From NCBI RefSeq assembly GCF_014643735.1, contig NZ_BMKA01000004.1:291792-355791 (forward strand): DNA of 64,000 nt. Direction: 5' to 3'. Position numbers and translations under genes: made by a program. Shown in pieces: positions 7,636 through 54,150 of the stretch. The notes beneath the pieces are model-generated. The model did no database searches. It saw nothing but the letters and a program-made list of their open reading frames with translations, and was not told where the DNA came from. Source of the DNA: Neptunicoccus cionae (GTDB taxonomy: Bacteria; Pseudomonadota; Alphaproteobacteria; Rhodobacterales; Rhodobacteraceae). Every line of letters starts with the position of its first letter. The stretch's first letter is position 1.

Positions 7636-7680
7636 CACAGCCCGGGGTCCTGGTGTCCCGGGGATCGCCCCCGGGCTGTG
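7636..7680 (-). terminator. Stem-loop after the smoE binding-protein gene
   Basis: A perfect 12-bp stem, CACAGCCCGGGG at 7636-7647 pairing with CCCCGGGCTGTG at 7669-7680, encloses a 21-nt loop. It begins 7 bp after the smoE stop and precedes smoF. There is no clear U-tract on the minus strand. Such intercistronic hairpins are known, for example between malE and malF, to raise the level of the binding-protein mRNA by partial termination or by blocking 3' exonucleases. That role is inferred here. Confidence 0.75.
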
Positions 7681-7687
7681 CAAAGGA

Positions 7688-8995
7688 TTAGTAGCCTGCA
7701 GCTTCCATTTCTTCAGCGGTTAGGGCTTGGGCTTTTTCAAGCGCCTCTTGCACGGACTGCTGGCCTGCCAGCGCTGCCGAGAATTCCTGACCAACCTGAG
7801 TTGCGATACCGGCAAATTCGGGAATGGCAACAAACTGCACACCTGTGTAGGGAACCGGATCAACAGTCGGGTTCGTCGGGTCAGCAGAATTGATGGAGTT
7901 CAGTGTCATCTCTGCGAAAGGAACCTTCTTGTATTCCTCGTTTTCATAGAGGGATGTCCGCGTGCCCGGAGGTACGTTTGCCCAACCTTCGCTTTCAGCA
8001 ACAAGGGCGGTGTATTCCTTGGATGTGGCCCAAGCGACGAATTTCTTGGCTTCGTCTGTTGCATCGGAACCGGCAGGGATCGCCAGCGACCATGCCCAGA
8101 GCCAGTTGCCCCGTTTGCCAAGACCGTTGTCCGGTGCCAGCGCAAAGCCGACGTGTTCGGCCACGGTGGAATCTGTCGGGTTTGTCACGAACGACGCAGC
8201 AACTGTCGCGTCAATCCACATGCCGCATTTGCCTTGCTGGAACAGGGACAGGTTTTCGTTGAAACCGTTTGTAGAAGCACCCGGAGGACCGTAGTTGTTC
8301 ATCAGGTCCATGTAAGTGTTCAGCGTTGCGGCCCATTCTTCGGTGTCGAACTGGGGCTTCCAGTCTTCGTCAAACCAACGTGCGCCATAGCTGTTTGCCA
8401 TTGCAGAGAGGAACGCCATGTTCTCGCCCCAGCCTGCTTTACCGCGCAGACAGATGCCGTAGATGCCTTTTTCCTTGTCGGTCATGGCTTCGGCAGCTTT
8501 GGCGATTTCGTCCCATGTTGGCGCTTCGGGCATTTCCATGCCAGCATTTGCCATCAGGTCTTTGCGATACATCACCATAGAGCTCTCACCGTAGAACGGT
8601 GCGGCGTAGAGGTTGCCGTCTACTGTCAGGCCACCGCGGATTGCGGGCAGAATATCGTCTTTGTCCCACTCAGCAGGCAGGTCATCCAAAGATACCAGCC
8701 AGTCTTGTGCACCCCAGATTGGGACTTCGTAAGTGCCGATGGTCATCACGTCAAACTGGCCGCCCTTGGCCGCGATGTCCTGCGTGACGCGCTGGCGCAA
8801 AACGTTCTCTTCCAGTGTCACCCATTCCAGTTTGATGTCAGGGTTTTTCGACGTGAAGTCTTCGGTCAGACCCTGCATGCGGATCATGTCGCCGTTGTTC
8901 ACTGTCGCGATGGTAATAGTAGTTTCCGCAAACGCGGCATTGGCTGCTAGTATGGCAGCAATGCTTGTTAGGCGTAGTGGCATAGTCAAATTCAT
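7688..8995 (-). CDS. smoE: Polyol ABC transporter substrate-binding protein
   Basis: A 435-residue family-1 extracellular solute-binding protein, the usual length for the group. A Sec signal peptide (about 1-23, ending NAAFA) precedes the mature ETTITIATVNNGDM start. The protein would bind sorbitol, mannitol or arabitol in the periplasm and deliver it to SmoFG. GGGAGG lies upstream of the ATG at 8995. It is the first gene of the operon, followed by a strong stem-loop. Upstream lie a TTGACA -35 element (9056-9061) and a likely LacI operator (9069-9082). Confidence 0.9.
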   Translation of the reverse strand: MNLTMPLRLTSIAAILAANAAFAETTITIATVNNGDMIRMQGLTEDFTSKNPDIKLEWVTLEENVLRQRVTQDIAAKGGQFDVMTIGTYEVPIWGAQDWLVSLDDLPAEWDKDDILPAIRGGLTVDGNLYAAPFYGESSMVMYRKDLMANAGMEMPEAPTWDEIAKAAEAMTDKEKGIYGICLRGKAGWGENMAFLSAMANSYGARWFDEDWKPQFDTEEWAATLNTYMDLMNNYGPPGASTNGFNENLSLFQQGKCGMWIDATVAASFVTNPTDSTVAEHVGFALAPDNGLGKRGNWLWAWSLAIPAGSDATDEAKKFVAWATSKEYTALVAESEGWANVPPGTRTSLYENEEYKKVPFAEMTLNSINSADPTNPTVDPVPYTGVQFVAIPEFAGIATQVGQEFSAALAGQQSVQEALEKAQALTAEEMEAAGY

Positions 8996-9034
8996 CCCTA
9001 GTCCTCCCTTGGTGAATCAGATGCTGGGATGACC

Positions 9035-9061
9035 TTAGAATGTATCTTGTCGCGGTGTCAA
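9035..9061 (-). promoter_or_regulatory. Candidate sigma-70 promoter of the smo operon
   Basis: On the minus strand a consensus TTGACA (9056-9061) is followed after 15-16 bases by a weak -10 match (TTCTAA/TCTAAG, about 9035-9040), 40 bp before the smoE start codon. The LacI-type operator at 9069-9082 lies 7 bp upstream of the -35 box. The -35 element is seen directly; the weak -10 makes the call tentative. Confidence 0.45.
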
Positions 9062-9068
9062 TTAAAAA

Positions 9069-9082
9069 TTAACGCGCGTAAA
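9069..9082. promoter_or_regulatory. LacI-type operator upstream of smoE
   Basis: The site TTAACGCGCGTAAA is a near-palindrome around CGCGCG, the CG-centred form typical of LacI-family operators. A second copy lies before the lacI gene at 10160-10173. The two share 14 of 15 bases over CGCGCG-N-AAAGTTAT (9073-9087 and 10164-10178). Sharing by the regulator gene and the transporter operon supports both as targets of the LacI protein encoded between them. Confidence 0.65.
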
Positions 9083-9090
9083 GTTATCGG

Positions 9091-10119
9091 TTAGGCAGAT
9101 GACCGCATAATCAAACGGCCCTCGTACAAAGTGTCCTGACGTTGCTTTGTCGCGCGCCCGTGCTCGATCAGGTTTACCAGCGCATCGACACTGCGCTCCG
9201 TGATAGCTTCATAGTCTTGCGAGATCGTTGTCAGTGACGGACAGGTATATCGGGCGAAAGGATGATCGTCGTGGCCGGCGATCCGTAAGCTGCAATCGGG
9301 TGCAATACCAACCTTTATGTCTAATTCATAAGCGGCGGCCATAAGGCCGATGGCAAGCCTGTCATTGCTGCAAAGGATTGTCCGGCTTGGCAAATCGTCC
9401 TTTCCAAGTAGTTTCAAACCGCCCTTGTATCCGATCTCCTCAAATTCCCAATCGTTGCCGTCAACGCGGATCACGTGGGGGGTATGACCCAGTTCTTCCA
9501 TCGCCTGAGTATAGGCTGCGCGCCGCTTGTTGGCGTTTGGATTGACTGGAGGCATCTCGAAGAAACAGGGCGGCTCTCCGGTGCGGCAGAGATATTCGAC
9601 CATCAAAGGCACTGACTGAAAGTTGTTGGAGCCGATAAACGTCGCGCCGATTCCCTCAAGATTGCTATCGACCAGAACTGTCGGAATCTCCCTGCAGAAA
9701 GCCTCCAGTTTATTTTTGTGGGAAACTCGACCGATCGGCGCCATTAAAACACCCGCAGGGCGCATGGATCGCAATATTTCGAGGATCTCGACCTCGTGGT
9801 CGGGGCTGCCGTGGGAACTGAAGGTAGACGGAGAGAAACCCGCTTCGATACAGCATCGCTCCAGTTTACGGGCAACTTCGGAAAAGAACGGGTCAGCCAC
9901 GTAAGGCACGACAATGCCGATGTTCTTCGTGATCCGCCGGTTTTGGTTGACGGCGTATAGATTGGGGCGAAAGTCATATTGCTCCAGCGCCGCCTCTATT
10001 TTTTGACGGGTGGAGGCACGCACGCTGGTCGGTTCGTTAAAGTATTTAGAGACTGTCGGACGGGACACGCCGCATTTCGCGGAGAATTCTTCCATGTTCC
10101 GAATTTTCTGACCAACCAT
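9091..10119 (-). CDS. LacI family transcriptional regulator of the polyol operon
   Basis: A 342-residue LacI/GalR regulator. The N-terminal helix-turn-helix and hinge (MEEFSAKCGVSRPTVSKYFN, then FRPN near 52-55) are followed by a periplasmic-binding-protein-like effector domain. It lies just upstream of smoEFGK-mtlK-kinase in the same direction, so its effector is probably the polyol or fructose. AAGGAC precedes the ATG at 10119. Matching CGCGCG operators before this gene and before smoE suggest it regulates itself as well as the operon. Confidence 0.88.
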   Translation of the reverse strand: MVGQKIRNMEEFSAKCGVSRPTVSKYFNEPTSVRASTRQKIEAALEQYDFRPNLYAVNQNRRITKNIGIVVPYVADPFFSEVARKLERCCIEAGFSPSTFSSHGSPDHEVEILEILRSMRPAGVLMAPIGRVSHKNKLEAFCREIPTVLVDSNLEGIGATFIGSNNFQSVPLMVEYLCRTGEPPCFFEMPPVNPNANKRRAAYTQAMEELGHTPHVIRVDGNDWEFEEIGYKGGLKLLGKDDLPSRTILCSNDRLAIGLMAAAYELDIKVGIAPDCSLRIAGHDDHPFARYTCPSLTTISQDYEAITERSVDALVNLIEHGRATKQRQDTLYEGRLIMRSSA

Positions 10120-10159
10120 TGGGCGTCCTTGATAAAGCTTCTCTGCCGCAAATAGAAAT

Positions 10160-10173
10160 TTTCCGCGCGCAAA
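10160..10173. promoter_or_regulatory. LacI-type operator upstream of the lacI gene
   Basis: TTTCCGCGCGCAAA lies 41 bp before the lacI start codon and matches the site before smoE: the 15-mers at 10164-10178 and 9073-9087 differ at one base. This suggests autoregulation. Confidence 0.6.
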
Positions 10174-10252
10174 GTTATACTGTGTTACAATTGGGCTGCG
10201 GTCAACAGAGCAGGTTAGTTAATACGATAACCCGGACGGGAAAGCCGAAACA

Positions 10253-10271
10253 CCCGCTCCCGTGAGGCGGG
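10253..10271 (-). terminator. Weak stem-loop after the amidohydrolase gene
   Basis: CCCGC (10253-10257) can pair with GCGGG (10267-10271), 24 bp beyond the stop of the M20 gene. The stem is only 5 bp and the minus-strand tail has only a short U run, so this may or may not end the tctCBA-SIP-amidohydrolase transcript. Confidence 0.3.
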
Positions 10272-10295
10272 AAAAATCAACCAACGGTAGTTACT

Positions 10296-11462
10296 TTACG
10301 AAAGTGGCATCCGTCGCTCTATGATTCGCGACAGGATGCTGGCCCCAACGGGCAGGATGTCGTCATCAAGCGTATAGGCGGGGTTGTGAACAGAGACGGT
10401 CCCGCTGTGTCCAAGCGTGCAATACGCCCCCGGCACCACCTTCAGCATATCGGCAAAATCCTCGCTACCGGTGCGCAACTGGTCCGACCGCTCTATCATA
10501 TCGGTCCCGACCACTTCGGCGGCGGCATCCAGCATTTCTTCGGATAGGTCGGCATCATTCATCAGAACATCGAATACGTTCCAGATTTTGACGTAGATCT
10601 CAATGCCGTGGGCTTTTGCCAGACCGGTGCAGATTTCATTGATGCGCAGCTCCACCAGTTCGCGCACGTCGTCGTGGAAGTATCGCAAAGTACCTGTCAG
10701 TGTGGCCGAAGCTGGCACCACGTTGTAGGCGTTCCCTGAATTAAAAGTAGTCACCGAAAGAACTGCCGGTTTGGTTGGGGCGACGTTACGGCTTACAATG
10801 GATTGAAGTTCTCCAACCAGAGACGCGGCGATCACAATCGTGTCCCGTCCGGCTTGGGGCATGGCGGCATGGCTGCCAATTCCGTTTACGGTAATATCGA
10901 AAAAGCACGCCCCCGCCATAGCCGCACCGGGTTTCACGCTGACATGGTTGGGCTTGCCGTTGGGATTGTTGTGCATCCCGTAGATTTCGTCGCAAGGAAA
11001 CTTCTCAAACAGACCATCTGCAATCATAGTGCGCGCACCGCCAAGACCCTCTTCGGCGGGCTGGAAAACCAGCACGGCTGTGCCGTCGAAATCTCGTGTT
11101 TGGGACAGGTATTTTGCAGCCCCCAGAAGCATCGTAGTGTGGCTGTCATGGCCACAGGCATGCATCAGTCCCGGCGTTTTAGAGGCGTAGGGCAGATTGG
11201 TTGTTTCATGGATTGGCAGGGCATCCATATCCGCCCGCAGCCCGATGCGTTTGGGGCCTGTTCCCTTGCCGTGGATCAAGCCGACAACCCCTGTTGTGGC
11301 AAGACCGCTGTGGACCTCATCCACGCCGTATTCCTTTAACAAACCCTGCACAATGCCACTGGTGCGGTGTTCCTGAAAACCGAGTTCGGGGTGTGCATGA
11401 AGATCGCGCCGGATTTCGGTAAGGGTCTCTGCGTGGTCGGCAATCTGGGGCAATACAGGCAT
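10296..11462 (-). CDS. M20-family amidohydrolase (hippurate hydrolase-like)
   Basis: A 388-residue metal-dependent hydrolase of the M20D/amidohydrolase group. It has the metal-site motifs GLRADMDALP (about 75-84) and HACGHDSHTTMLLGAA (about 101-116), and later EEGLGGA and GSEDFADM (about 335-342). Such enzymes cleave N-acyl amino acids, hippurate-like amides or indole conjugates in the cytoplasm. AGGA precedes the ATG at 11462. It is the last gene of a co-directional set with tctCBA and a flavoreductase, which suggests a carboxylate or acyl-amino acid imported by TctABC as substrate. The exact substrate is unknown. Confidence 0.85.
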   Translation of the reverse strand: MPVLPQIADHAETLTEIRRDLHAHPELGFQEHRTSGIVQGLLKEYGVDEVHSGLATTGVVGLIHGKGTGPKRIGLRADMDALPIHETTNLPYASKTPGLMHACGHDSHTTMLLGAAKYLSQTRDFDGTAVLVFQPAEEGLGGARTMIADGLFEKFPCDEIYGMHNNPNGKPNHVSVKPGAAMAGACFFDITVNGIGSHAAMPQAGRDTIVIAASLVGELQSIVSRNVAPTKPAVLSVTTFNSGNAYNVVPASATLTGTLRYFHDDVRELVELRINEICTGLAKAHGIEIYVKIWNVFDVLMNDADLSEEMLDAAAEVVGTDMIERSDQLRTGSEDFADMLKVVPGAYCTLGHSGTVSVHNPAYTLDDDILPVGASILSRIIERRMPLS

Positions 11463-11527
11463 GGTCTGGTCCTAAATCTCTGCGGGTTTGCAGCACTTTA
11501 GGCTGCGCACCGCAGGTTGACCAGAGA

Positions 11528-12328
11528 TTAGCTGACCGGAGTTGCCTCCTTGCGTTTTTCGATCTGGTGTTCGTCCTCAATCAGTCCGATTTTCCAGTAG
11601 CCAGCGATATAAGCGTCTGCTTTTGGCAGCTTGCGATCCAAAAGGATGTACTGTCGCAGGGCGCGGATCATACTGCTTTCCCCTGCGATGCAAACTTGCA
11701 AACGCTCCTTTGGCCAAGGGAGCTGACGCACCAGTTTGTCCACCTGACCATCCGGTTTGGACGGGGTGGGATTTACCAGCCAATGGGCTGTGACACCTGC
11801 AGGCATCGTAAGGGTTTGCCGGTCATCGGGATGGGTGATCTCAAAGATTGCAGTGCCTTTGGCCGTGTCCGGCATAGCCTCCAGTGTTGCAGCGGCCAGT
11901 GGAAGAGCAGAAAGATCAGCCACCACCAAGTAGTGTTCGGCCTCAAAGGATTTGACTTTAACCATACCGGGTCCTGCAAAACCGCAATACGCACCAACCT
12001 GTGCTGCCCTTGCCCATGCAGAGGCCGGACCAGCGTCTCCGTGATCAACGAAATCGATGTCCATTTCGCAGGCAGCCTGCCGTTGATGGCGGACTGTATA
12101 GGTGCGCACATCCGGACGCGGGCCTTCGTTCAATTGCTTGCGAAAGGCTGCTATGTCCTGACCCGGTTCGGGAAGGAACAGTTTGCAATTTGCCCCCTCA
12201 CATCCATCGGCGATCTCCCCGATCTCGGGGCTGCTGAATGTCACGCGGATCATATGGGCCGAAACCCGACGAACGGCGGAAACGGTAAAAAGGCGGGGCG
12301 GACGTTTGCTACGGGCTGGTTCTTTCAT
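11528..12328 (-). CDS. Siderophore-interacting protein (FAD-dependent ferric reductase)
   Basis: A 266-residue protein of the SIP/ViuB family. The flavin-binding segment RTYTVR (75-80), DFVDHGDAGPASAWA, GPG and a C-terminal IAGESSMIRALRQYI/YIAGYWKIG block follow the family order. These cytoplasmic enzymes reduce ferric-siderophore complexes with NAD(P)H and FAD to release Fe(II). It is unusual to find one between a tricarboxylate transporter and an amidohydrolase: TctA ends 101 bp upstream and the M20 gene starts 65 bp downstream. The context allows import of an iron-binding carboxylate, but this is speculation. Confidence 0.85.
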   Translation of the reverse strand: MKEPARSKRPPRLFTVSAVRRVSAHMIRVTFSSPEIGEIADGCEGANCKLFLPEPGQDIAAFRKQLNEGPRPDVRTYTVRHQRQAACEMDIDFVDHGDAGPASAWARAAQVGAYCGFAGPGMVKVKSFEAEHYLVVADLSALPLAAATLEAMPDTAKGTAIFEITHPDDRQTLTMPAGVTAHWLVNPTPSKPDGQVDKLVRQLPWPKERLQVCIAGESSMIRALRQYILLDRKLPKADAYIAGYWKIGLIEDEHQIEKRKEATPVS

Positions 12329-12429
12329 GGTATCTTCCTGTCATGTCGTGGGTGGGAAAATACCTGCCTGTTGAAATGGATTGTATCACGGTATCTTGAA
12401 AGGTTCGAGCGTAAAGGCACCTCGCCGGA

Positions 12430-13944
12430 TCAGGTTTTGCTGTCGATCGCCTCCGCTTCAGCGTTCTTGCGCATAAAATAGACAAAAGACACCACCGACA
12501 GCACCAGTAAAGCGACTGCAACGGGGCTTTTGAACATCTGCGTCAGGTCTCCGTTCGTCAAAGCCAGCGATTGCGCGATGGATTTTTCAAAACGGGGTCC
12601 AAGGAAAAACGCGATGATGAAGATGACCAGTGAATAGCCGAAGGTGGACATCAGATAGCCGACAATGGCGAAGATCAGCATGATGGCTACGCCGAACAAT
12701 CCGCTGGTAGCCATGGAAACCCCGACGATGCACAACAACAAAGCTGCGGAAAAGATGATGGACTCCGGTGCCGACACCACTTTGGTCCAGAAGCGCAGCC
12801 CCAATTGTCCCACCCAAAGGTTCACAAAATTCGCCATCAGCATCGCGCCAAACAGCCCATAGACCAGACGACCCTGTTGTTCAAACAACAGCGGGCCGGG
12901 CTGCATTCCGTGGATCATAAAGGCCGAAATGATCAGCGCCGCACCCACACTGCCCGGAATACCGAGTGTCAGCAGCGGGATAAGGTTTGCTCCGACCACG
13001 GCAGAGTTTGCGGATTCAGATGCTGCGATCCCTTGCAGATTGCCCTTGCCAAAGCTTGACGGGTCTTTTGATCCGGCTTTGGTCATGGCGTAGGACATGA
13101 AGGCCGCCGCCGTGGATCCGATACCGGGTAGGGCGCCTAGGATTGTTCCAATCGTTGCACCGCGCAGCATCGTATAACGGCAGGCCCAGTATTCTGCCCA
13201 ACTGACACGGCGGTCTTCCGGCCTGTTGGAACCGTCGGTGATAATACCCGATTTCACGTTACCATGGGCCAGCGACATACGGCGCAGGATTTCGGAAATG
13301 GCGAGCATCCCGATCGCGACCGAGGGCAGGGGCAGCCCGTCGAACAGATCCCAATACCCGAAAATCAGGCGCGGAGTGTAATGCTCGGGGTCTTGTCCGA
13401 CCGAGGCCACCAGCAGGCCAAGTGCGGCCGCGATCATGCCTTTGATCAGGGAGTTTCCGATTAGTCCTGCCAAAATGGAAAAAGCGAAGATCATTAGCGC
13501 GACAACCTCAATCGGGCCCATTTTCAGCGCCATAATCGCCAGCGGGGCAGACACAGTAATCAGAACAATATCGCTGAATAGATCCCCCGTAACGGACGAA
13601 AACAGCGCCATTTTTGTCGCCTTCAGCGGCTTTCCCCTTTTGGCCAGCGGATGCCCGTCCAGCGCCGTGGCGGCCGCATCGGGTGTGCCGGGCGTATTCA
13701 TCAGGATTGCAGGCACCGCACCGCCAACCAGCCCGCCTTTGTTCACGCCCACAAGAAAGGCAATCGCGGGCAGTGGATCCAACCCGAAGGTAAAGGGGAT
13801 CGCGATGGCCATGGCCATGATCGGCCCGATCCCTGGCACCGCGCCGACGAACTGGCCAAGCAGTACCCCAAACAACACGAACATCAGGTTGAACGGGGTA
13901 AACGCGTCACCAAAACCGGCGGTTATTGTTGCTAAATCCACCAT
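12430..13944 (-). CDS. tctA: Tripartite tricarboxylate transporter, large permease TctA
   Basis: A 504-residue membrane protein of the TctA family with about 11-12 helices. It carries the conserved VGAVPGIGPIMAMAIAIPF (about 33-51) and a second repeat GALPGIGSTAAAFMSYA (about 265-281); these Gly-Pro motifs are typical of the substrate path. It forms a sodium- or proton-driven importer with TctB and the periplasmic protein TctC. AAGGAC lies before the ATG at 13944, 11 bp after tctB. The substrate is likely a di/tricarboxylate or other organic acid. Confidence 0.93.
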   Translation of the reverse strand: MVDLATITAGFGDAFTPFNLMFVLFGVLLGQFVGAVPGIGPIMAMAIAIPFTFGLDPLPAIAFLVGVNKGGLVGGAVPAILMNTPGTPDAAATALDGHPLAKRGKPLKATKMALFSSVTGDLFSDIVLITVSAPLAIMALKMGPIEVVALMIFAFSILAGLIGNSLIKGMIAAALGLLVASVGQDPEHYTPRLIFGYWDLFDGLPLPSVAIGMLAISEILRRMSLAHGNVKSGIITDGSNRPEDRRVSWAEYWACRYTMLRGATIGTILGALPGIGSTAAAFMSYAMTKAGSKDPSSFGKGNLQGIAASESANSAVVGANLIPLLTLGIPGSVGAALIISAFMIHGMQPGPLLFEQQGRLVYGLFGAMLMANFVNLWVGQLGLRFWTKVVSAPESIIFSAALLLCIVGVSMATSGLFGVAIMLIFAIVGYLMSTFGYSLVIFIIAFFLGPRFEKSIAQSLALTNGDLTQMFKSPVAVALLVLSVVSFVYFMRKNAEAEAIDSKT

Positions 13945-13955
13945 AGAGCGGTCCT

Positions 13956-14375
13956 TTAAGGCAATGCGCGGCCTAGCGCTTGGGTCACGAGAAACCAGAT
14001 CAGTGCTGGCATTCCGACGGCTCCGAAGGCCAACCAGAAGGGGCGGCGTTCACCGATGAACCACATGATGGCAAAGGCAAGGACCGGTGCGACATACTCA
14101 AAACCGAACCGTGACATGGCATAGAGCCCCGCGATCAGAAGCAGGCTGTAAAACCCCGTCCGCGCGATATTTCGAAGATCGCCTACTTCGTGGTGCGTCG
14201 GTTTCACCACCAAAAGTCCGCCGCACAGCGCAATGATCACAGAGATAATATTGGGCACGGTTTTGGGGTTCAAACTGCCCCCTTCCACCGTCTCGATATA
14301 GGCGGGGTTGACCACGAAATACATCGCGAGCCCGAGCAACAAAAAGAAAATACCGGAAATGCGGTCCGCTGACAC
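13956..14375 (-). CDS. tctB: Tripartite tricarboxylate transporter, small permease TctB
   Basis: A 139-residue protein with four predicted membrane helices, the usual size and topology of TctB subunits. It starts with GTG at 14375, preceded by an AGGGGGGA ribosome site right after the stem-loop that follows tctC. Sequence conservation in this family is low, so the call rests on position between tctC and tctA, size and helix pattern. Confidence 0.85.
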   Translation of the reverse strand: MSADRISGIFFLLLGLAMYFVVNPAYIETVEGGSLNPKTVPNIISVIIALCGGLLVVKPTHHEVGDLRNIARTGFYSLLLIAGLYAMSRFGFEYVAPVLAFAIMWFIGERRPFWLAFGAVGMPALIWFLVTQALGRALP

Positions 14376-14395
14376 TACGTGATCCCCCCTTGGAT

Positions 14396-14423
14396 GCCCC
14401 CCGCTGGATTGCCAGCAGGGGGC
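14396..14423 (-). terminator. Stem-loop after the tctC binding-protein gene
   Basis: Two 12-nt arms (14396-14407 and 14412-14423) pair over 11 of 12 positions around a 4-nt loop. The structure sits 8 bp after the tctC stop and just before the tctB ribosome site. No U-tract follows, so partial termination or 3' protection of the tctC mRNA is more likely than full termination. Confidence 0.7.
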
Positions 14424-14431
14424 GTTCAGTT

Positions 14432-15379
14432 TTACTTGCCAAACAGGACTTTGGCGTTGGCCAGACCGTCTACCATCATTTGCTTGGTGCCTTCGACGCC
14501 CATGTTGATCGGATCGCCTTTCACCGCATTGCGCACGATTTCTGCAAATTCGGGCGCTTTAATCGCCTCGTCTATGGCCGCTGAAATCGCCTTGATGGCC
14601 TCTGGATCAGTGCCGCCGGTCATCGCAAGGAAGAACACCGGATCAACATAGGCTGGCACACCGGATTCAGTGAAGGTTTTCACATCCGGCGCATAGCTCA
14701 GACGGGATTGGTTCGCACCGGCAATGACCTTCATGTCACCGGACTCAAGGTAGGGGTATTGCTCACCCGAGCCGAAACCCGCCAGAACCTGTCCGCCAAG
14801 AATCAGCTTCATCACTTCAGCCCCGCCGTCGGCTGTCACTAGGTTAAAGCTCGCGCCGGTTTTGGCTTCGGTCTGCTTCATCACCAGGACCTGCGGTGGC
14901 GCCATTGTGGCGACTGCCAGCGTGCCTTGTTCTTTGGCGTGTGCGACCATTTCTTCCAGCGTATCAAAGGGTGCGTCCTTGCTGGCCACAAGCGCCAGTT
15001 CGGCCTTGGCGACAGTGCCAAGGTAATCAAAACTGTCGATATCAAACGGCAGTTGGTCGCCGCGATTTACCAGTTGAACCAGCACAGGGATGCTGACCCC
15101 CATCCCGACGATATTCCGGTTTGGCGGCATCTGGGACAGGCCGGTAAACATGGCCACGCCCCCCCCGCCCGGTTTGTTTTCAACGACGACATTCCAGCCG
15201 GTATTGTCCTTCATCACCTTGCCCAGCACGCGCCCCATTGTATCGGTAGAGCCCCCCGCGCCAAAGCCGATCTGAATGGTAAGCGGGCCGTCCGGTGCCC
15301 AATCCTCTGCGAGAACCGGCGCTGAAAAGGCCATAAGAGCGGATGCGCCGAGCGCAAAAATTTTGGATTTCAGGTTCAC
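14432..15379 (-). CDS. tctC: Tripartite tricarboxylate transporter substrate-binding protein TctC
   Basis: A 315-residue periplasmic binding protein of the TctC/Bug family. A signal peptide (about 1-24, ending APVLA) precedes WAPDGPLTIQIGFGAGGSTD, the family's first ligand loop, and VVENKPGGGG. It captures an organic anion for TctAB. It is the first gene of the operon and is followed by a strong stem-loop. The 225-bp region upstream (15380-15604) presumably holds its promoter. The IclR gene at 15605-16411 lies upstream in the same direction and could regulate it. Confidence 0.92.
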   Translation of the reverse strand: MNLKSKIFALGASALMAFSAPVLAEDWAPDGPLTIQIGFGAGGSTDTMGRVLGKVMKDNTGWNVVVENKPGGGGVAMFTGLSQMPPNRNIVGMGVSIPVLVQLVNRGDQLPFDIDSFDYLGTVAKAELALVASKDAPFDTLEEMVAHAKEQGTLAVATMAPPQVLVMKQTEAKTGASFNLVTADGGAEVMKLILGGQVLAGFGSGEQYPYLESGDMKVIAGANQSRLSYAPDVKTFTESGVPAYVDPVFFLAMTGGTDPEAIKAISAAIDEAIKAPEFAEIVRNAVKGDPINMGVEGTKQMMVDGLANAKVLFGK

Positions 15380-15604
15380 TTGTTATCCTCCCGTAAAGTG
15401 AAATTCTTGTTAATATGTTAAGCATCTTTTGCAAGGGCGTTCAATGCAGGAAATTCGGACGACGCCTAATGTTCCCCTCCCAAGCGAATTAACCCCCTAA
15501 TTATGCTTAATAATTTTCGGACACGCAAACTGCTTTGGTATCATTGTGTCAGCTAAACACATTAAAGAATGGAACAACAGGGGCGTATTTCGGCGTAGCG
15601 CGTG

Positions 15605-16411
15605 TTAGATGGAGGGCAGCAAGAGATTGGGATGTTCTGCTGCCAGTTGCGCGCCGATAGTCTGCGCTGTCGCGTGCAGGCGGCCCAAATGTTGCGCGAC
15701 CACCGTGTCTGTGTCGTAGTCTTCAGCGAGCCACACTAAGCTGAGGGCGCCAACCGCATTTGGGCCGAATCGGATTGCAACGCTGATGGCCGTGGGCACG
15801 CCCCCATAATCCACCGCACGTCCCCAATATCCCTTCTCGCGCACAGCAAATTCCGTCGCCTTTATGTCTGCTAATTTGGTTGGGAACTCCAAGGCCGCTG
15901 CCCGGTCTGATCCTGTAAGCGTGGCTGACAGTTTAGTGATACATTTGCTGCGGCTTTCGTCTTCCAAAGTTGCCAGGAACACGCATCCGAGCGCAGAGCG
16001 GAACGGGGAGGGGCGATAGCCGATACAATCGGGAAAAATGCCATGAACCGAAAACTGGCGGGTTGTGTCGACAATCTCCAGTCGCCCGTCACCGATGGAC
16101 GCAGCCAGATCAACTCCCAGACCAGTCTTTACGGACAATTCCACGATGGGGCCGCTGCCTACTTCAACCAACGCATCAATCAGAACTGGCGCGGTTTCCA
16201 TTCGTGGGAAACGTGGACCCATCCGGTAGCGTCTGTCATTTCTGCTTTGGGACAGCCACCTGCGTGCAACCAGTGTGGCGCAAATCCGCAGCACTGTGGG
16301 TTTGGGCAAACCGGTCTGTGCGGCTAGAAATGCCAGCGAAGACACGCCGGTTTCCGATACGACTTCCAGAATTTCCATACTGCGCTCTACGGAGCGATTT
16401 GTCTTCGTCAT
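15605..16411 (-). CDS. IclR family transcriptional regulator
   Basis: A 268-residue IclR regulator. The N-terminal winged helix (about 5-65, with AFLAAQTGLPKPTVLRICATL) is followed by the effector domain to about 255. It is divergent from the TRAP permease gene (16536). A 21-bp near-perfect palindrome (16414-16434) lies only 2 bp before its start codon and contains the AGGTGG ribosome site, which suggests tight autoregulation. Its likely targets are the TRAP-sulfatase operon and possibly tctCBA. Effector unknown. Confidence 0.85.
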   Translation of the reverse strand: MTKTNRSVERSMEILEVVSETGVSSLAFLAAQTGLPKPTVLRICATLVARRWLSQSRNDRRYRMGPRFPRMETAPVLIDALVEVGSGPIVELSVKTGLGVDLAASIGDGRLEIVDTTRQFSVHGIFPDCIGYRPSPFRSALGCVFLATLEDESRSKCITKLSATLTGSDRAAALEFPTKLADIKATEFAVREKGYWGRAVDYGGVPTAISVAIRFGPNAVGALSLVWLAEDYDTDTVVAQHLGRLHATAQTIGAQLAAEHPNLLLPSI

Positions 16412-16413
16412 TT

Positions 16414-16434
16414 GCGTTCCACCTAGTGAAACGC
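16414..16434. promoter_or_regulatory. 21-bp palindrome, candidate IclR operator
   Basis: GCGTTCCAC, CTA, GTGAAACGC: two 9-bp arms with one mismatch around a 3-bp centre. It lies in the 124-bp divergent region, directly against the IclR start codon and 101 bp upstream of the TRAP permease start. A bound protein would cover the IclR ribosome site. Symmetry is seen; the regulator is inferred from position. Confidence 0.6.
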
Positions 16435-16535
16435 AGTCTCGACTAAATTTATCGGGGTGTCTAGGTAGTCACATAAGAATCACCGCGTCTAGCACATTTG
16501 CGAGATTGGTGATGATCATGGAGGAGAACAATCGG

Positions 16536-18404: not shown

Positions 18405-18416
18405 GGAGGAACTATT

Positions 18417-19448: not shown

Positions 19449-19465
19449 TAAAGCGACTTGATACA

Positions 19466-19490
19466 GGTCGGAGCCGTCGAGGCTCCGGCC
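19466..19490 (+). terminator. Stem-loop after the first TAXI gene
   Basis: A 10-bp stem (GGTCGGAGCC at 19466-19475 with GGCTCCGGCC at 19481-19490, one non-Watson-Crick position) closes a 5-nt loop. It sits 17 bp after the TAXI stop and 29 bp before the sulfatase start. There is no U-tract, so transcription probably continues in part. Confidence 0.65.
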
Positions 19491-19519
19491 AAACTAATTT
19501 TAAAGACTTAGGGATCGTC

Positions 19520-21847: not shown

Positions 21848-21925
21848 AAGTGTATCGCGATCCTTTGTTAAACAATCGGTGGTGAGGAACAATATTAGGC
21901 CGACTTTGTCCAGTTGGCAATGCAT

Positions 21926-21940: not shown

Positions 21941-22024
21941 CAATACTTTCACTATTTGCTATTGAACCTGATGGGCTACTCGTTTATTTCTGCTGCACCC
22001 TTTGGGGAAGGAGGAGGCGCAATT

Positions 22025-25455: not shown

Positions 25456-25480
25456 GCCAGCGCGATTCCGTCGCGCTGGC
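25456..25480 (+). terminator. Stem-loop after dctP of the P450 operon
   Basis: A perfect 10-bp stem, GCCAGCGCGA with TCGCGCTGGC, closes a TTCCG loop and is followed by TGTTTTC. It sits 22 bp after the dctP stop and 23 bp before dctQ. The short U-rich tail makes partial termination plausible. Confidence 0.75.
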
Positions 25481-38943: not shown

Positions 38944-38977
38944 GGCCTGCGCCCTGATCAAAGATCCGGCGCAGGCC
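38944..38977 (+). terminator. Stem-loop after the second TAXI gene
   Basis: GGCCTGCGCC (38944-38953) pairs with GGCGCAGGCC (38968-38977); an inner GATC-AAA-GATC can extend the structure. It sits 12 bp after the TAXI stop, and TTCCCTTAC follows. It precedes the amidase gene by 75 bp. Confidence 0.7.
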
Positions 38978-42717: not shown

Positions 42718-43725
42718 ATGTACAAAAACACCATCAAACTTACCGCTTCCGCCGTAGCGCTTTGTGCGGCATCTTCTGCTTTCGCTGACTCTTTGACAGT
42801 CTACACCGCGCTTGAGGAAGAAGAGGTGGCGATCTATCTCGATGCAGCGAAGGCGGCGATGCCTGATCTGGAAATCGACGTGCTGCGCCTGTCCACCGGC
42901 AAGCTGGGCGCGCGTCTGCTGGCCGAAGCGGGCAATCCGCAGGCGGATGTTATCTGGGGCTGGGCTGTGACAGCCATGATGGACCCGCAGGTTCTGGAAT
43001 TGATGGCACCCGTGAAAATCGCCGGAACCGAGGCGCTGGCCCCGCAGTTCCGCGATACCGAGGATCGCTGGTTCGCGCAAATCGGTTATATGGGCGCATT
43101 CTGTGTGAACACCGCACGGCTGGAAGACAAAGGCTTGACCATGCCCACCAGCTGGGCCGATCTGGAAGCGCCTGAATTCAAGGGCGAGGTTCTGATGCCC
43201 GATCCAAATGAATCCGGCACGGGTTATTTGCATGTGAATGCGGTTCTGCAAGGCATGGGTGTGGAAAAAGGTTGGGCGCAGCTGGAAGCGGTCGATCCGA
43301 ACATGGCGCAATATACGTCTTCGGGGTCAAAGCCGTGTAAATCTGCCCGTACCGGCGAATATACCGTTGGCATCTCGCTGGCTTTCACCGCGATGCAATC
43401 CATCGAAGAGGGCTATCCTTTGGCCATGGTGTTCCCGTCCGAAGGTGTAGGCTATGAACTGGAAGCCTCCGGTATTCTGTCCAGCAGTGACCAGCAGGAA
43501 GAAGCGAAGAAGTTTCTGGACTGGACCATGTCCCCTGACGCGATTGAACTGTTCAGCCAGTACAAAGCGCTGGTGACTGTAGCGGGTGCAAAACCGTCTG
43601 AAACGGCCGTCAAAGCGGGATTGCCGAGTGATATTTCAACCGTGCTCGCCCCAGTAGATTTCGTAGAGTCTGCCGGTCGCCAGAACGAGATCAAAGCAGA
43701 GTGGCGCGAAAAGTTCGGTCGTTAA
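42718..43725 (+). CDS. ABC transporter substrate-binding protein (AfuA/PhnS2-type)
   Basis: A 335-residue periplasmic protein of the ferric-iron/2-aminoethylphosphonate/sugar-phosphate binding group. A signal peptide (about 1-23, ending SSAFA) precedes DSLTVYTALEEEEVAIYLDA. The motif TSSGSKPCKSARTGEYTVGI, with clustered Ser/Lys, is at the place where the phosphonate and hexose-phosphate binders hold phosphate. It lacks the paired Tyr ligands expected of true iron binders, as far as I can see. The ATG at 42718 fits the family; the frame extends upstream to 42595. A 12-bp stem-loop follows. With a DeoR regulator and an IMPase enzyme in the operon, an organophosphate ligand is likely. Confidence 0.8.
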   Translation: MYKNTIKLTASAVALCAASSAFADSLTVYTALEEEEVAIYLDAAKAAMPDLEIDVLRLSTGKLGARLLAEAGNPQADVIWGWAVTAMMDPQVLELMAPVKIAGTEALAPQFRDTEDRWFAQIGYMGAFCVNTARLEDKGLTMPTSWADLEAPEFKGEVLMPDPNESGTGYLHVNAVLQGMGVEKGWAQLEAVDPNMAQYTSSGSKPCKSARTGEYTVGISLAFTAMQSIEEGYPLAMVFPSEGVGYELEASGILSSSDQQEEAKKFLDWTMSPDAIELFSQYKALVTVAGAKPSETAVKAGLPSDISTVLAPVDFVESAGRQNEIKAEWREKFGR

Positions 43726-43738: not shown

Positions 43739-43767
43739 GGCTGCGGGGGCGCAGTGCCCCCGCAGCC
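43739..43767 (+). terminator. Stem-loop after the AfuA/PhnS2-type gene
   Basis: A perfect 12-bp stem (GGCTGCGGGGGC with GCCCCCGCAGCC) with a 5-nt loop GCAGT, 13 bp after the SBP stop and 74 bp before the ATPase gene. No U-tract follows. It is the strongest of the window's binding-protein-linked hairpins. Confidence 0.75.
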
Positions 43768-48381: not shown

Positions 48382-49284
48382 ATGCTTCCCCGCTTTTTAA
48401 AAAAGACGTGGTTTGCGGCTGTTGTCGCTGTTTCAGCTTCCGGTGCGTATGCTGATGAAAAAATGAAGGTGGTGACGACCTTCACCGTTCTCGCCGATAT
48501 GGCCGCAAATGTAGCGGGAGAGGCGGCTGAGGTTGTTTCGATTACCAAACCCGGCGCAGAAATTCACGGGTATGAACCAACACCCCAAGACATCGTGCGC
48601 GCCTATGATGCGGATTTGATTTTGTGGAACGGGATGAATCTTGAACTTTGGTTCGAACAGTTCCTCTCTAATATGAAAAACGTTCCTGCTGCCACGCTTA
48701 CAAGGGGAATAGAGCCGATTTCCATTTCGTCCGGCAGCTATGAGGGTAAGCCAAACCCCCATGCGTGGATGGGTTTGGACAGTGCGCTCATCTACATCGA
48801 TAACATCCTAGAGGCATTCGTCGACCATGATCCCGATAATGCCGAGTTATATGCCGCCAATGCGCTAGCCTATAAAGAGAAGCTTCGCGCAACCATAGAG
48901 CCGCTGCGCTCTGCTATTGCTGCTATTCCAGAGGATCGTCGCTGGCTGGTGACGTGCGAAGGGGCTTTCAGCTATCTGGCCCGAGATTTCGGACTGGAAG
49001 AAATGTATCTCTGGCCGATGAACGCAGATCAGGTGGGCACGCCCCAACAGGTGCGCAAGGTGATTGATGGCGTGCGCGACAATAACATTCCGGTGGTGTT
49101 TTGCGAAAGCACTGTGAACACGGCTCCGGCGAAACAGGTCGCCCGTGAAACCGGTGCCGCATATGGCGGCGTGCTATATGTCGACAGCCTGAGCGAACCG
49201 GACGGTCCGGTTCCGACGTATCTTGATCTGCTCAGCGTGACGGCGCGGACCGTAGCGGAAGGGCTAACGGCGGCCACGAATTGA
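48382..49284 (+). CDS. sitA: Manganese/iron ABC transporter substrate-binding protein
   Basis: A 300-residue cluster-A1 metal-binding protein. The signal peptide (about 1-24, ending GAYA) is followed by VVTTFTVLADMAANVAG. Expected metal ligands are visible as His in GAEIHGYEPTPQD and NPHAWMG, Glu in CEGAFSYLARDFGLEE and Asp in YVDSLSEPDG: the His-His-Glu-Asp set of Mn/Fe binders rather than the His-rich zinc type. AGGAGAA precedes the ATG. It is under two Mur-like boxes and is followed by a stem-loop. Confidence 0.9.
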   Translation: MLPRFLKKTWFAAVVAVSASGAYADEKMKVVTTFTVLADMAANVAGEAAEVVSITKPGAEIHGYEPTPQDIVRAYDADLILWNGMNLELWFEQFLSNMKNVPAATLTRGIEPISISSGSYEGKPNPHAWMGLDSALIYIDNILEAFVDHDPDNAELYAANALAYKEKLRATIEPLRSAIAAIPEDRRWLVTCEGAFSYLARDFGLEEMYLWPMNADQVGTPQQVRKVIDGVRDNNIPVVFCESTVNTAPAKQVARETGAAYGGVLYVDSLSEPDGPVPTYLDLLSVTARTVAEGLTAATN

Positions 49285-49304: not shown

Positions 49305-49330
49305 AACCTGCGGCATCCCAACCGCAGGTT
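49305..49330 (+). terminator. Stem-loop after sitA
   Basis: AACCTGCGG pairs with CCGCAGGTT around an 8-nt loop, 20 bp after the sitA stop and 45 bp before sitB. ATTTGG follows, so there is no strong U-tract. Probably reduces sitBCD relative to sitA. Confidence 0.7.
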
Positions 49331-52006: not shown

Positions 52007-52022
52007 CGCAGACGATACCCCT

Positions 52023-52655
52023 TCAGGCCATCAACCCTCTGACGATGGTGTTTGCCATTGTGTCTACAATCCGTGCCTGATCCGCGCGATTTTGTTCGGG
52101 TCTAAGGCGGTACCAATCCACAAGGGAGTTCAACGCGCCCAAGATCGCGCGCCCTGAAATCGCAACATCCGGCACGCATAAGGTTCCGTCTTCCTGTCCC
52201 TGTTGTAACACGGCACGGTACAGATCTTCGTAATCGTTACGCCTTGCGATTAAGGCCCGCAGCACTTCGTGATCCTCTTTTGATGCCTGCCCGTGCAAAT
52301 AGACGTTCACGCCCTGCCGGATACTGCGCTGGAAGGGTAGGGTGTCCATCATCACCCAGCCGTGCGCCTTGGCCATTTCCAGCAGTTTCATGTCGGCTGG
52401 CATGGGCTGGTCGACGATGGGCAGTACTGCATCGAAACAGAATTGCATCGCTTGACGGTAGACCGCAAAGAAGATTTCGTCCTTGGAGCGGAAGTGGTGG
52501 TAAACCCGCCCTTTCGTCGCGCCAAGCTCTGCGGCCATATGGTCCATCGTGGCCTTTTCCAGCCCGTATTTCATGAAGCAGACCGCGGCGGCCTCGATAA
52601 TCTGCCGGCGGCTTTCAAGCTGACGCTTGGTTAATTTGGTGCTTTGTTCGTCCAT
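52023..52655 (-). CDS. TetR family transcriptional regulator
   Basis: A 210-residue TetR regulator. The helix-turn-helix (TMDHMAAELGATKGRVYHHFRSK) follows a basic N-terminus; the C-terminal part is a TetR ligand domain. It is divergent from the DctPQM operon starting at 52956 and is the likely regulator of that operon. The start is ATG 52655. The ligand is probably related to the TRAP substrate and is unknown. Confidence 0.86.
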   Translation of the reverse strand: MDEQSTKLTKRQLESRRQIIEAAAVCFMKYGLEKATMDHMAAELGATKGRVYHHFRSKDEIFFAVYRQAMQFCFDAVLPIVDQPMPADMKLLEMAKAHGWVMMDTLPFQRSIRQGVNVYLHGQASKEDHEVLRALIARRNDYEDLYRAVLQQGQEDGTLCVPDVAISGRAILGALNSLVDWYRLRPEQNRADQARIVDTMANTIVRGLMA

Positions 52656-52955
52656 AGGGTTTCCGACGTAAGTGTCTAAGCAACGGCATTGGCAAGTTTA
52701 TAGGCACCAGAGACGGTCCCTTTACACGACCTTGCAAGTCTGACGTTACGGAAGTCAAGCAACGGGCGATTGAAGTGGCTTGACACTCACGGGCGCAAAT
52801 TGGTGTATGAACATACTGACGGGAATGTTTTTGCGGGAGGTCCCTAGGGAGGGATTCGTCAAAGGCGCTAGGGGGCTTTTTGATCCGTTTGATCGGATGG
52901 ATACCCTTTTGCCTCGCAAACATTTTTAACGAATTATCGCTCGGGAGGAGCAAAT
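52656..52955. promoter_or_regulatory. Divergent TetR/dctP promoter region
   Basis: This 300-bp region has no gene. A TTGACA at 52780-52785 on the plus strand could be the -35 of the dctPQM promoter, with TGTATG 18 bases on as a weak -10. AACAT (52810-52814) and ATGTT (52825-52829) form a short inverted repeat just after it, a possible TetR site. Confidence 0.35.
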
Positions 52956-54116
52956 ATGACGCGCACTATGAATTTGAAAACACTGACTGGCGCCGCACTT
53001 GGGGCGGTTCTAACAGTTGCGACACCACTGGCAGCGCAGGAGCGACTGAATTTTGCCTACGGGTATCCAAATACTTCCGCAATCGGGGTTGCTGTTGACG
53101 AATACGCCGAGGCTGTAGCCGAAAAAACCGGTGGGAACGTAAAGCTTAAAGGCTTTCCGATGTCCCTTCTGAGCCTGCCGGAAACAAGCCCCGGTGTGCG
53201 GGACGGTCTGGCCGATGCCGGCTTCGTTCTGACGCCATATTACGCCGCTGAATACAGCACGAACTTGTTCCTGCACGAAATGAACTTGCTGATCAATCTG
53301 GCAGATAATCCCAACGGGAAAGAGCCTTTGGCTTTCACCGGCGCGATGCTGGAGTACACCTTTAACGACTGCCCTGAATGTATGGCAGAATTTGAAGCGC
53401 AAAATCAGGTCTATACCGCTGGCGGTGTGACCCCGCTGTATAACCTTCTGTGTAAAGACGTAAAAGTCACGTCCGTTGAGGACCTTAAAGGCAAGCGCCT
53501 GAGAGCAGGCGGTGCGGGTTTTGTCCGGTTTGCCGAGGAATTCGGTGCGCAGGGTGTTCGACTGCCGGTGAACGAAGTCTATGAAGCACTGGATCAGGGC
53601 ATCCTCGATTGCGCCATGCTGAGCGCACCGGAGCTGACCAATTATAACCTGCATGAAGTTGTCACCGACATCACGCTTGGAGTGCCAGGGGGTGCTTTTG
53701 CCGGTGTTGCTTCGGCCAATATCAATGCGGACCGCTGGAAAGCCATGAGCACCGAAGACCGCAAGGCGCTGCTTTGGGGCGGTAGCCACATTACGGCTGG
53801 TGTGACTTGGGGTTTTTACAGCGATGACGCGAATGCGATCAAACATGCTGAAGAAAATGGCATCAATATTTACCAGCCAGAGCCGGAGCTGACTGCGGCT
53901 GTGAAGGAATTCGTTAACAAGGATCTGGCCACAGTGTCCGCCCTGTTCAAAGATTCCTACGGTGTTGCGCGCGCAGAAGAGATTGCCGCAGACTTCCCAC
54001 CACTGCTGGAAAAATGGTATGGTCTGGTTGCGGACGTTGAAACCAAAGAACAGTTGCAACAGCTGTACTGGGATCAGGTGATTTCCAAAATCGACGCCGA
54101 GACTTACGGTCAGTAA
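52956..54116 (+). CDS. dctP: TRAP transporter DctP-family substrate-binding protein
   Basis: A 386-residue DctP-type binding protein, longer than usual (about 330-340). The signal peptide (about 1-28, ending PLAAQ) precedes ERLNFAYGYPNTSAIG. LKGKRLRAGGAGFVRFAE holds the ligand-binding Arg segment. A CPEC pair near residue 145 and another Cys near 168 could form disulfides and are unusual for the family. GGGAGGAG lies before the ATG. It is followed by a stem-loop and by dctQM. Confidence 0.88.
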   Translation: MTRTMNLKTLTGAALGAVLTVATPLAAQERLNFAYGYPNTSAIGVAVDEYAEAVAEKTGGNVKLKGFPMSLLSLPETSPGVRDGLADAGFVLTPYYAAEYSTNLFLHEMNLLINLADNPNGKEPLAFTGAMLEYTFNDCPECMAEFEAQNQVYTAGGVTPLYNLLCKDVKVTSVEDLKGKRLRAGGAGFVRFAEEFGAQGVRLPVNEVYEALDQGILDCAMLSAPELTNYNLHEVVTDITLGVPGGAFAGVASANINADRWKAMSTEDRKALLWGGSHITAGVTWGFYSDDANAIKHAEENGINIYQPEPELTAAVKEFVNKDLATVSALFKDSYGVARAEEIAADFPPLLEKWYGLVADVETKEQLQQLYWDQVISKIDAETYGQ

Positions 54117-54123
54117 ATCTCAC

Positions 54124-54150
54124 ACGGGGCACCGTTCAGCGGTGCCCCGT
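54124..54150 (+). terminator. Stem-loop after the third-system dctP
   Basis: A perfect 11-bp stem, ACGGGGCACCG with CGGTGCCCCGT, closes a TTCAG loop and is followed by TTTCCC. It begins 7 bp after the stop and ends 32 bp before dctQ. It may partly terminate transcription. Confidence 0.75.

Follow-up and report, generated by a model that had tools for sequence, protein, structure and literature searches.

Intergenic hairpins of the REP/BIME type can stabilise the mRNA upstream of them, REP being a dispersed repeat, and an intercistronic hairpin in the puf operon of Rhodobacter capsulatus was reportedly described by Klug in 1987; older remarks are also said to place stem-loops in the Rhizobium aap and Rhodobacter dct operons. 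The available text of a study of Escherichia coli describes five ABC operons in which the stabilised gene is always that of the solute-binding protein (SBP), at any position, and E. coli operons with a stabilised first gene that carry 3′ hairpins without U tracts (PMC5927463). In cellulolytic Clostridia a stem-loop with a long GC-rich stem and few U lies in the SBP–permease spacer, as it does in the DNA analysed here, and at least 15 internal terminators past SBP genes are predicted in E. coli (PMC9045158). Segmental stability is in use in the puf operon of Rhodobacter, according to the available part of PMC6238624.

Hairpins in the Neptunicoccus cionae window

The window, a 64-kb stretch of Neptunicoccus cionae DNA, holds eight hairpins directly behind genes whose SBP identity is backed by Pfam:

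7635..7681, minus strand: hairpin, −28.0 kcal/mol, 13-bp stem, 21-nt loop
7688-8995, minus strand: CUT1 SBP gene upstream of it, first gene of its transport set
14396..14423, minus strand: hairpin, −25.9 kcal/mol, 12-bp stem, preceding tctB
14432-15379, minus strand: TctC SBP gene upstream of it
18417-19448, plus strand: TAXI SBP gene, permease upstream
19466..19490, plus strand: its hairpin, −20.8 kcal/mol, SBP gene on one side and sulfatase gene on the other
24405-25433, plus strand: DctP SBP gene
25456..25480, plus strand: its hairpin, −20.4 kcal/mol, preceding dctQ, tail UGUUUUCU
37918-38931, plus strand: TAXI SBP gene, permease upstream
38944..38977, plus strand: its hairpin, −20.9 kcal/mol, 10-bp stem, 14-nt loop, amidase gene next
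42718-43725, plus strand: SBP_bac_6 (AfuA-like) gene
43739..43767, plus strand: its hairpin, −28.8 kcal/mol, preceding an ATPase gene
48382-49284, plus strand: ZnuA/SitA-type SBP gene
49305..49330, plus strand: its hairpin, −14.8 kcal/mol, weakest of the eight
52956-54116, plus strand: DctP SBP gene
54124..54150, plus strand: its hairpin, −24.0 kcal/mol, preceding dctQ

An earlier note on this DNA had placed all eight, correctly to within one base. Its dimensions needed some adjustment: the claimed stems of 9–12 bp, offsets of 7–23 bp and loops of mostly 4–8 nt were found by folding to be stems of 9–13 bp that start 6–22 nt past the stop, with loops of 3, 3, 3, 4, 5, 8, 14 and 21 nt and stem energies from −14.8 to −28.8 kcal/mol. 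The fold z-scores of the eight regions run from −3.0 to −5.1, and at most one in 200 dinucleotide shuffles per region folds equally well. At same-strand gaps of 40–149 bp in the window, a strong hairpin (dG ≤ −14, here and below) follows eight of eight SBP genes and none of eight other genes.

The note had also singled out the SBP gene of a riboswitch operon as an exception, and this holds:

56157-56375, plus strand: cobalamin riboswitch of the operon (RF00174, 132.4 bits)
57320-58255, plus strand: Peripla_BP_2 SBP gene, the ninth of the window, followed after a 6-bp gap by a FecCD permease gene

There is no hairpin at the junction of this gene with the permease gene, the 70 nt downstream having a z-score of −1.4, and the sole stem nearby (−12.2) falls within the FecCD permease gene.

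Specificity for binding-protein genes and conservation

Three sources made up the main sample: the window, 2.38 Mb of Cognatishimia maritima sequence and, from Sedimentitalea arenosa, 20 of an intended 40 SBP-centred stretches. At matched gaps (same strand, 40–149 bp; gene starts and gaps from our own gene calling) a strong hairpin stands behind 56 of the 59 SBP genes, compared with 117 of the 493 other genes (p = 7e-28), the Sedimentitalea part being a non-random sample because its stretches were picked around SBP matches. With the first gene labels the counts were 52/54 and 104/452, a contrast robust for energy cut-offs from −8 to −20 kcal/mol, and with any same-strand neighbour allowed they were 72/83 and 258/1785. 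An artefact of spacing is ruled out, since the contrast persists at matched gaps, as are chance stems, for the threshold was reached by 59 of 61 real SBP downstream regions and by only 40 of 1220 dinucleotide shuffles. In Ruegeria TM1040, where the labels came from an incomplete database table, strong hairpins stand behind 7/9 SBP genes and 3/22 others. As for class assignment, 11 same-strand SBP-family genes that failed the signal, neighbour or length rule were placed in neither class (strong hairpin in four), a phosphonate-type SBP gene with a strong hairpin was counted among the non-SBP genes, and two SBP-family matches lay outside called genes or sampled stretches. A late-found set of eight SBP genes came from searching families PF01547 and PF09084 and is half blind, because four of them had first been spotted by their hairpin, and identified by Pfam, before the families were chosen.

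The hairpin goes with the binding-protein gene and not with gene order, as the earlier note had maintained: it is present in all six SBP genes that have transport genes upstream only and in 56 of the 63 that are followed by a permease or ATPase gene, and it is retained when the downstream neighbour is a chemoreceptor, a second SBP, a sulfatase or an amidase gene. The note's proposed comparison with other intra-operon junctions did not give equal frequencies, permease and ATPase genes having a strong hairpin at nine of 66 matched gaps. Its view of an SBP-tied rule across transporter superfamilies is likewise borne out by the SBP counts. A dispersed repeat of the REP/BIME type, which the note had rejected, is ruled out by the unrelated stems: among 73 SBP hairpins a 9-mer is common to 41 of 2628 pairs (raw count).

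Whether the rule evolved repeatedly, as was also claimed, depends on the level considered. Across families this fits; within an orthologous group, sequence comparison indicates that the hairpin is inherited and maintained through compensatory change. In a structure-registered count limited to the eight closest TAXI sequences, from eight genomes, three of the ten pairs of hairpin 19466..19490 are changed on both sides with pairing intact. Strong hairpins follow the orthologues of the TAXI SBP gene at 18417 in 13 of 16 relatives, and those of the TAXI SBP gene at 37918 in only three of six, an incomplete conservation that speaks against the decay block proposed below.

The lineage range was sampled with one top-scoring DctP gene per genome. 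Within Rhodobacterales the hairpin was found in 18 of 20 genomes, a sample of top-scoring DctP genes and not of random SBP genes, because the 20 were taken by best DctP score from 41 genomes, all with matches (G001 and G026 excluded). Across the Alphaproteobacteria, with matches in 36 of 58 genomes, it was found in only 14 of the 29 loci counted out of 30 (L083, a Cognatishimia, was left out; the reading frame of L241 was read as 623 codons, which exceeds DctP length), so that a universal alphaproteobacterial rule is unsupported. One lineage-assigned tabulation omitted the three loci L001, L002 and L029.

Decay, termination and other readings

A U run of at least four follows three of 52 SBP hairpins. 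In the same genomes such a run follows 78 of 232 hairpins where genes end convergently and 45 of 90 in gaps of at least 150 bp, and the SBP hairpins are more stable and closer to the stop than both controls (median start 13 nt past it). Their tails contain U and are poor in G, with at least five U in 8 nt in 16 of 62. A consensus terminator scan of window positions 1-20000 picked up none of the three SBP hairpins in that interval, and its 21 sites do not exceed the 23.1 expected. The canonical terminator look, absent from most SBP hairpins, is seen after dctM, the last gene of the operon that starts at 52956:

56069..56095, plus strand: comparison hairpin entering a U run, −19.8 kcal/mol, 3′ of dctM

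We consider it reasonably probable that the hairpin forms the 3′ boundary of the SBP message, a decay block that raises SBP over the downstream product, with some termination possibly adding to the effect. Transcription, with co-transcription suggested by strand and spacing, would mostly continue through the hairpin into the next gene; endonucleolytic cleavage would follow within or past the spacer, and the SBP segment would outlast the downstream segment because the stable, U-poor stem-loop near the SBP stop stops 3′–5′ exonucleases. Observed are the position, strength and SBP-specificity of the hairpins, the compensatory changes and the weak U tracts; from these we infer the steps just given and the mRNA and protein ratios expected from them. 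One prediction, that of A+U-rich spacers with RNase E sites, is unsupported by composition: spacer A+U past SBP hairpins is 0.468, no higher than in the control spacers (0.474 and 0.491), so that the expected sites are not visible in it.

The SBP hairpins might instead be weak internal intrinsic terminators, a possible role in which part of the polymerases halt past the SBP gene and transcription of the permease gene is lowered. The stem-loops of Ruminiclostridium cellulolyticum, likewise long, GC-rich and poor in U, terminate in Northern blot and dual-reporter experiments, and 87.3% of long 5′-SBP spacers there hold one (PMC9045158); Wu et al. describe working internal terminators with just this combination of a long stem and a weak U tract, and U occurs in some tails of the window, such as UGUUUUCU behind the gene ending at 25433, which makes hairpin 25456..25480 the closest of the eight to a terminator in look. 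We nevertheless think termination unlikely as the main role, given that U runs follow SBP hairpins significantly less often than they follow the other hairpins in these genomes and that, where the permease precedes the SBP gene, termination would leave the SBP:permease ratio unchanged. The earlier note had expected an excess of SBP mRNA over permease mRNA, and perhaps stable 3′-end RNAs; as an effect of termination the excess fails in both TAXI operons within the window, where the permease lies 12 and 32 bp upstream of the SBP gene and termination therefore cannot lower permease relative to SBP mRNA.

Other readings fare much worse. It is very improbable that the hairpins serve mainly as 3′ ends of trans-acting small RNAs cut from SBP mRNAs, even though Rhodobacter has 3′-UTR-derived small RNAs (PMC6238624, available part) and a stable 3′ end might represent such an RNA: no Rfam family reaches its gathering score at these sites, the stems are unrelated among loci and altered among orthologues, and the available text of a survey of small RNAs in Ruegeria pomeroyi, which lists RNAs antisense to transporter genes, has none at SBP 3′ ends (PMC4809877). 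The loop motif CUUCCAAG is weak as well, occurring at three of 76 SBP genes and seven of 2595 other genes, and is partly due to two paralogous SBP_bac_5 genes. Still less probable is that these are ordinary terminators or boundary structures such as stand behind any gene followed by a wide gap. Gaps of 40–149 bp are indeed commoner after SBP genes (59/83, against 66/335 for permease and ATPase genes), yet the contrast at matched gaps and that from the Ruegeria TM1040 labels both speak against it. Least probable of all is an effect on translation of the permease and not on mRNA, the hairpin covering the next gene's ribosome-binding site or uncoupling translation: hairpins do lie in the spacer ahead of permease genes, but they adjoin the SBP stop, away from the next start, and occur also where the next gene has no role in transport.

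On the favoured reading, a decay block at the 3′ boundary of the SBP message, the cell probably makes more binding protein than it does of the neighbours' products through the hairpin, which would match the needs of a substrate-scavenging transporter; where the SBP gene is the last of the transport genes, the hairpin would do no more than make the SBP-bearing segment longer-lived compared with what lies downstream. Such a block would offer a simple candidate explanation of how these uptake systems obtain the SBP excess they require. On a broader proposal our judgement is evenly balanced, namely that in Rhodobacterales the functional class of SBP genes comes as standard with a U-poor protective stem-loop some 5–25 nt past the stop, in ABC, TRAP, TAXI and TTT systems and with any neighbour, through selection for product abundance; the hairpin would then be a class-specific mRNA element, because selection would have equipped nearly every SBP gene with one. 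SBPs are abundant in marine proteomes, and if the proposal is true the hairpin may underlie that abundance and would aid SBP gene prediction and annotation. With its dozens of natural stem-loops, the set would also allow decay to be measured against termination within one organism.

Relation to known systems

In structure the SBP hairpins resemble decay-blocking intercistronic elements more than canonical terminators. A stable stem-loop between cistrons, right past the SBP gene, is the arrangement of the malE-malF and puf type (with co-transcription judged from strand and spacing), and a long GC stem past the SBP gene with reduced U is that of the Clostridial internal terminators; the GC-rich stem with an immediate U run of intrinsic (Rho-independent) terminators is not a feature of the group as a whole, single members such as 25456-25480 coming near. 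REP/BIME elements are intergenic hairpins as well, but belong to a dispersed repeat, whereas the stems here are unrelated. The open-access literature searched gave, among the matches listed, no report of the rule for TRAP, TAXI or TTT systems or for Rhodobacterales; we do not claim priority, because that literature was open access only and because of the older remarks on aap and dct.

The rule is not new in principle, being already published for ABC importers of E. coli (PMC5927463, available text) and Clostridia (PMC9045158). The hairpin of malE-malF in E. coli, like those here, lies 3′ of the SBP gene; it has no U tract, and those here seldom have a U run, though their tails contain U. In the available text of that study 17 of 26 protective structures lie within the next ORF, while the hairpins here are mostly intergenic, and decay was studied there in five ABC operons, while here most SBP genes examined, those of TRAP, TAXI and TTT systems too, have a hairpin identified from sequence alone (PMC5927463). 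The Clostridial cases are ABC importers for which premature termination is shown, whereas ours are Alphaproteobacteria and include secondary transporters (PMC9045158). The puf operon of Rhodobacter capsulatus comes from related bacteria and sets a protein ratio by differential segment stability (PMC6238624, available part), though its genes are for photosynthesis and those here for transport. The present analysis adds how regular the rule is in Rhodobacterales and that TRAP, TAXI and TTT systems use it: scattered cases, malE with four further E. coli ABC operons and the Clostridial ABC importers, become a regular rule in a major marine lineage, one that secondary transporters obey too.

Stem-loops behind the binding-protein genes of the window

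The 64 kb of the window (55% G+C) hold nine solute-binding protein (SBP) genes, assigned by Pfam to SBP_bac_1, TctC, NMT1_3 (TAXI, two genes), DctP (two genes), SBP_bac_6, ZnuA and Peripla_BP_2. All eight of the GC-rich stem-loops that the earlier note had placed directly 3' of these genes were recovered, with folding z-scores of -3.0 to -5.1. Their stems (9-13 bp, 9-12 bp claimed) and starts (6-22 nt past the stop, 7-23 bp claimed) lie close to the first description, while loops range over 3-21 nt rather than mostly 4-8 nt. The riboswitch operon is the exception, as had been proposed: its Peripla_BP_2 gene, 6 bp ahead of the FecCD permease, is the sole SBP gene without a hairpin.

56157-56375, cobalamin riboswitch heading the Peripla_BP_2 operon
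56523-59317, operon behind the riboswitch, with ATPase, SBP and FecCD permease genes following one another

The window belongs to the Roseobacteraceae or a lineage close to them, judging by one of its permeases, whose best matches (78-81%) are in Sedimentitalea arenosa, a Rhodobacteraceae MAG and Cognatishimia maritima. Adjoining a DctP transporter, 21920-24355 encodes a cytochrome P450 fused to a 2Fe-2S-domain part, with similar stretches on Sulfitobacter and Pseudosulfitobacter plasmids; 62849-63817 encodes a winged-helix HTH_29/HTH_32 protein, which we take to be perhaps a relative of IS630-type transposases.

Specificity for SBP genes

Gene ends were called by our own gene caller and hairpins by a scan of ours that required a perfectly paired stem with 7 or more pairs, 4 or more of them G-C, a loop of 3-25 nt and a start at most 45 nt from the stop; hairpins with dG <= -14 kcal/mol were termed strong. 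The 2671 gene ends came from 2.38 Mb of Cognatishimia (total about 3.3 Mb), 20 Sedimentitalea stretches picked around SBP genes, and the window. SBP genes were labelled by Pfam family searches and a signal/neighbour rule; the comparison set consisted of permease/ATPase genes together with cytoplasmic and exported genes distant from transporters. Where the next gene on the same strand lay 40-149 bp away, strong hairpins followed 52/54 SBP genes and 104/452 other genes (p=2e-27), a contrast that stayed intact at dG thresholds from -8 to -20. Other intra-operon junctions had been proposed beforehand as the test; behind permease and ATPase genes at these gaps the figure was only 9/66. Dinucleotide shuffles reached the strong threshold in 40 of 1220 cases, against 59 of 61 real SBP downstream regions.

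Two further family searches added eight SBP genes, seven of them with strong hairpins and the eighth at -13.2; four had first been spotted through their hairpins, which leaves four found blind (3/4 strong). The final count at 40-149 bp is 56/59 for SBP genes versus 117/493 for all others (p=7e-28), or 48/51 versus 117/485 without the window, and across all same-strand gaps 72/83 versus 258/1785.

Strong hairpins by SBP family (73/84 in total, including one SBP gene facing a convergent neighbour)
DctP, 21/24
SBP_bac_3, 8/8
SBP_bac_5, 7/9
SBP_bac_8, 8/9
Peripla_BP_6, 4/5
Peripla_BP_4, 4/6
TctC, 6/6
TAXI, 5/5
Late-found SBP_bac_1/NMT1, 7/8
CUT1, 1/1
SBP_bac_6, 1/1
ZnuA, 1/1
Peripla_BP_2, 0/1

Below 40 bp, strong hairpins were found at only 9/17 SBP genes, G001:C7:48960-49787 on a sampled contig outside the window being one of these short-gap genes. 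Either starts were miscalled or, as the figure suggests, there is a second arrangement that does without a hairpin. Some hairpins at such short gaps lie inside the next called ORF.

Breadth and inheritance

Database product names gave independent labels for a 198-kb part of the Ruegeria sp. TM1040 megaplasmid, where strong hairpins followed 7/9 SBP genes versus 3/22 others at 40-149 bp (p=0.0013) and 9/11 versus 10/37 at 40-250 bp (p=0.0033). Two SBP genes fell short, one with a stem of -13.7 and one with no stem. One hairpin-bearing SBP gene there precedes another SBP gene. A further one, ABC-type (NC_008043.1 161441-162601), lies right before a chemoreceptor gene, with no adjoining permease in the gene table.

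Hairpins at 40-149 bp gaps in loci sampled around TAXI permease relatives (SBP versus other genes)
Other Rhodobacterales, 8/11 versus 5/31
Other Alphaproteobacteria, 9/10 versus 5/45
Betaproteobacteria, 3/4 versus 2/22
Gammaproteobacteria, 13/22 versus 24/100

At 150-400 bp the contrast in these loci was clear only in Gammaproteobacteria (12/15 versus 13/50), the remaining lineages offering two or three SBP genes apiece. None of the six SBP genes with gaps of 15-39 bp had a hairpin. Taking the single top-scoring DctP gene from each genome, a hairpin was found in 18/20 Rhodobacterales genomes (shuffles 7.8%) and in 14/29 of the class Alphaproteobacteria (shuffles 6.7%). From these figures and the lineage counts, the rule is close to universal in the sampled Rhodobacterales and, beyond them, frequent but not universal.

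Relatives of the TAXI SBP at 18417-19448 (at least 50% identity) occur in 16 other sequences, 13 with a strong hairpin. In a structure-registered count over the eight closest sequences (the window and seven others), three of ten stem pairs show substitutions in both partners that preserve pairing (C-G/U-A, A-U/G-C, C-G/G-C/U-A); eight are standard in all sequences having them and the remaining two in 6/8 and 7/8. The TAXI SBP at 37918 is less regular (strong in 3/6 relatives). Between loci the stems are unrelated, as had been claimed, only 41 of 2628 hairpin pairs having a 9-mer in common. Compensatory changes within orthologues and unrelated stems across loci together point to a stem inherited inside each orthologous group and kept by selection on pairing, with a separate origin per family; the description 'repeatedly evolved' would thus suit families but not orthologues.

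Two SBP_bac_5 genes of the same sampled contig (G001:C7:88247-90175 and G001:C7:242209-244137) have near-copy downstream regions with a loop containing CUUCCAAG; the two differ by compensatory change in at least one pair of the stem.

Probable protection, possible partial termination and known systems

The stem could block mRNA decay and spare the SBP segment, or act as a partial internal terminator. A run of at least four U follows 3/52 SBP hairpins. Among the remaining strong hairpins of these genomes it is commoner: 78/232 at convergent gene ends (p=1.5e-5), 45/90 at gaps of at least 150 bp (p=1.4e-8) and 28/104 behind non-SBP genes whose same-strand neighbour lies 40-149 bp away (p=0.0013). 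Compared with other strong hairpins, SBP stems have greater stability and lie closer to the stop codon. Both kinds occur in the operon starting at 52956, where UUCCCUGC follows the dctP stem and the dctM stem runs into a U run. The A+U-rich spacer past the stem predicted by a cleavage model was not seen (0.468 versus 0.474 and 0.491).

The hairpin was said to be present even where the SBP comes last among the transport genes, and it was found at 6/6 SBP genes with transport genes solely upstream. Since termination at such a site could not shift SBP relative to permease, this arrangement speaks for a protected SBP segment, although a stem so placed could also simply end the message. Partial termination draws on the 16/62 SBP hairpins with at least five U in 8 nt, and on working Clostridia SBP terminators (PMC9045158), whose long stems and reduced U equally fit the stems seen here. 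On balance, protection of the SBP mRNA segment is the probable main action and partial internal termination a rather unlikely one, though the two may operate at one and the same site.

The principle itself is already published for E. coli ABC operons (PMC5927463) and cellulolytic Clostridia (PMC9045158), and Rhodobacter puf mRNA is the classic example of segmental stability (PMC6238624). In five E. coli ABC operons the stabilised gene is always the SBP, whether first, middle or last, and the U-poor SBP stems resemble the decay-blocking hairpins reported there. In the cellulolytic Clostridia, Wu et al. found a stem-loop in 87.3% of the long spacers of 5'-SBP clusters, and functioning internal terminators with measured termination of 20.7-96.1%; a long stem and low U are shared with the SBP hairpins here, at which termination is a possibility. 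Among the papers listed by searches of mainly open-access literature, the rule appeared neither for TRAP, TAXI or TTT systems nor as a genome-wide one in Rhodobacterales. What is added to the known principle is thus its extension to secondary transporters and its near-universality in one order. The Rhodobacterales SBP hairpins share the anatomy of the published cases and probably their use.
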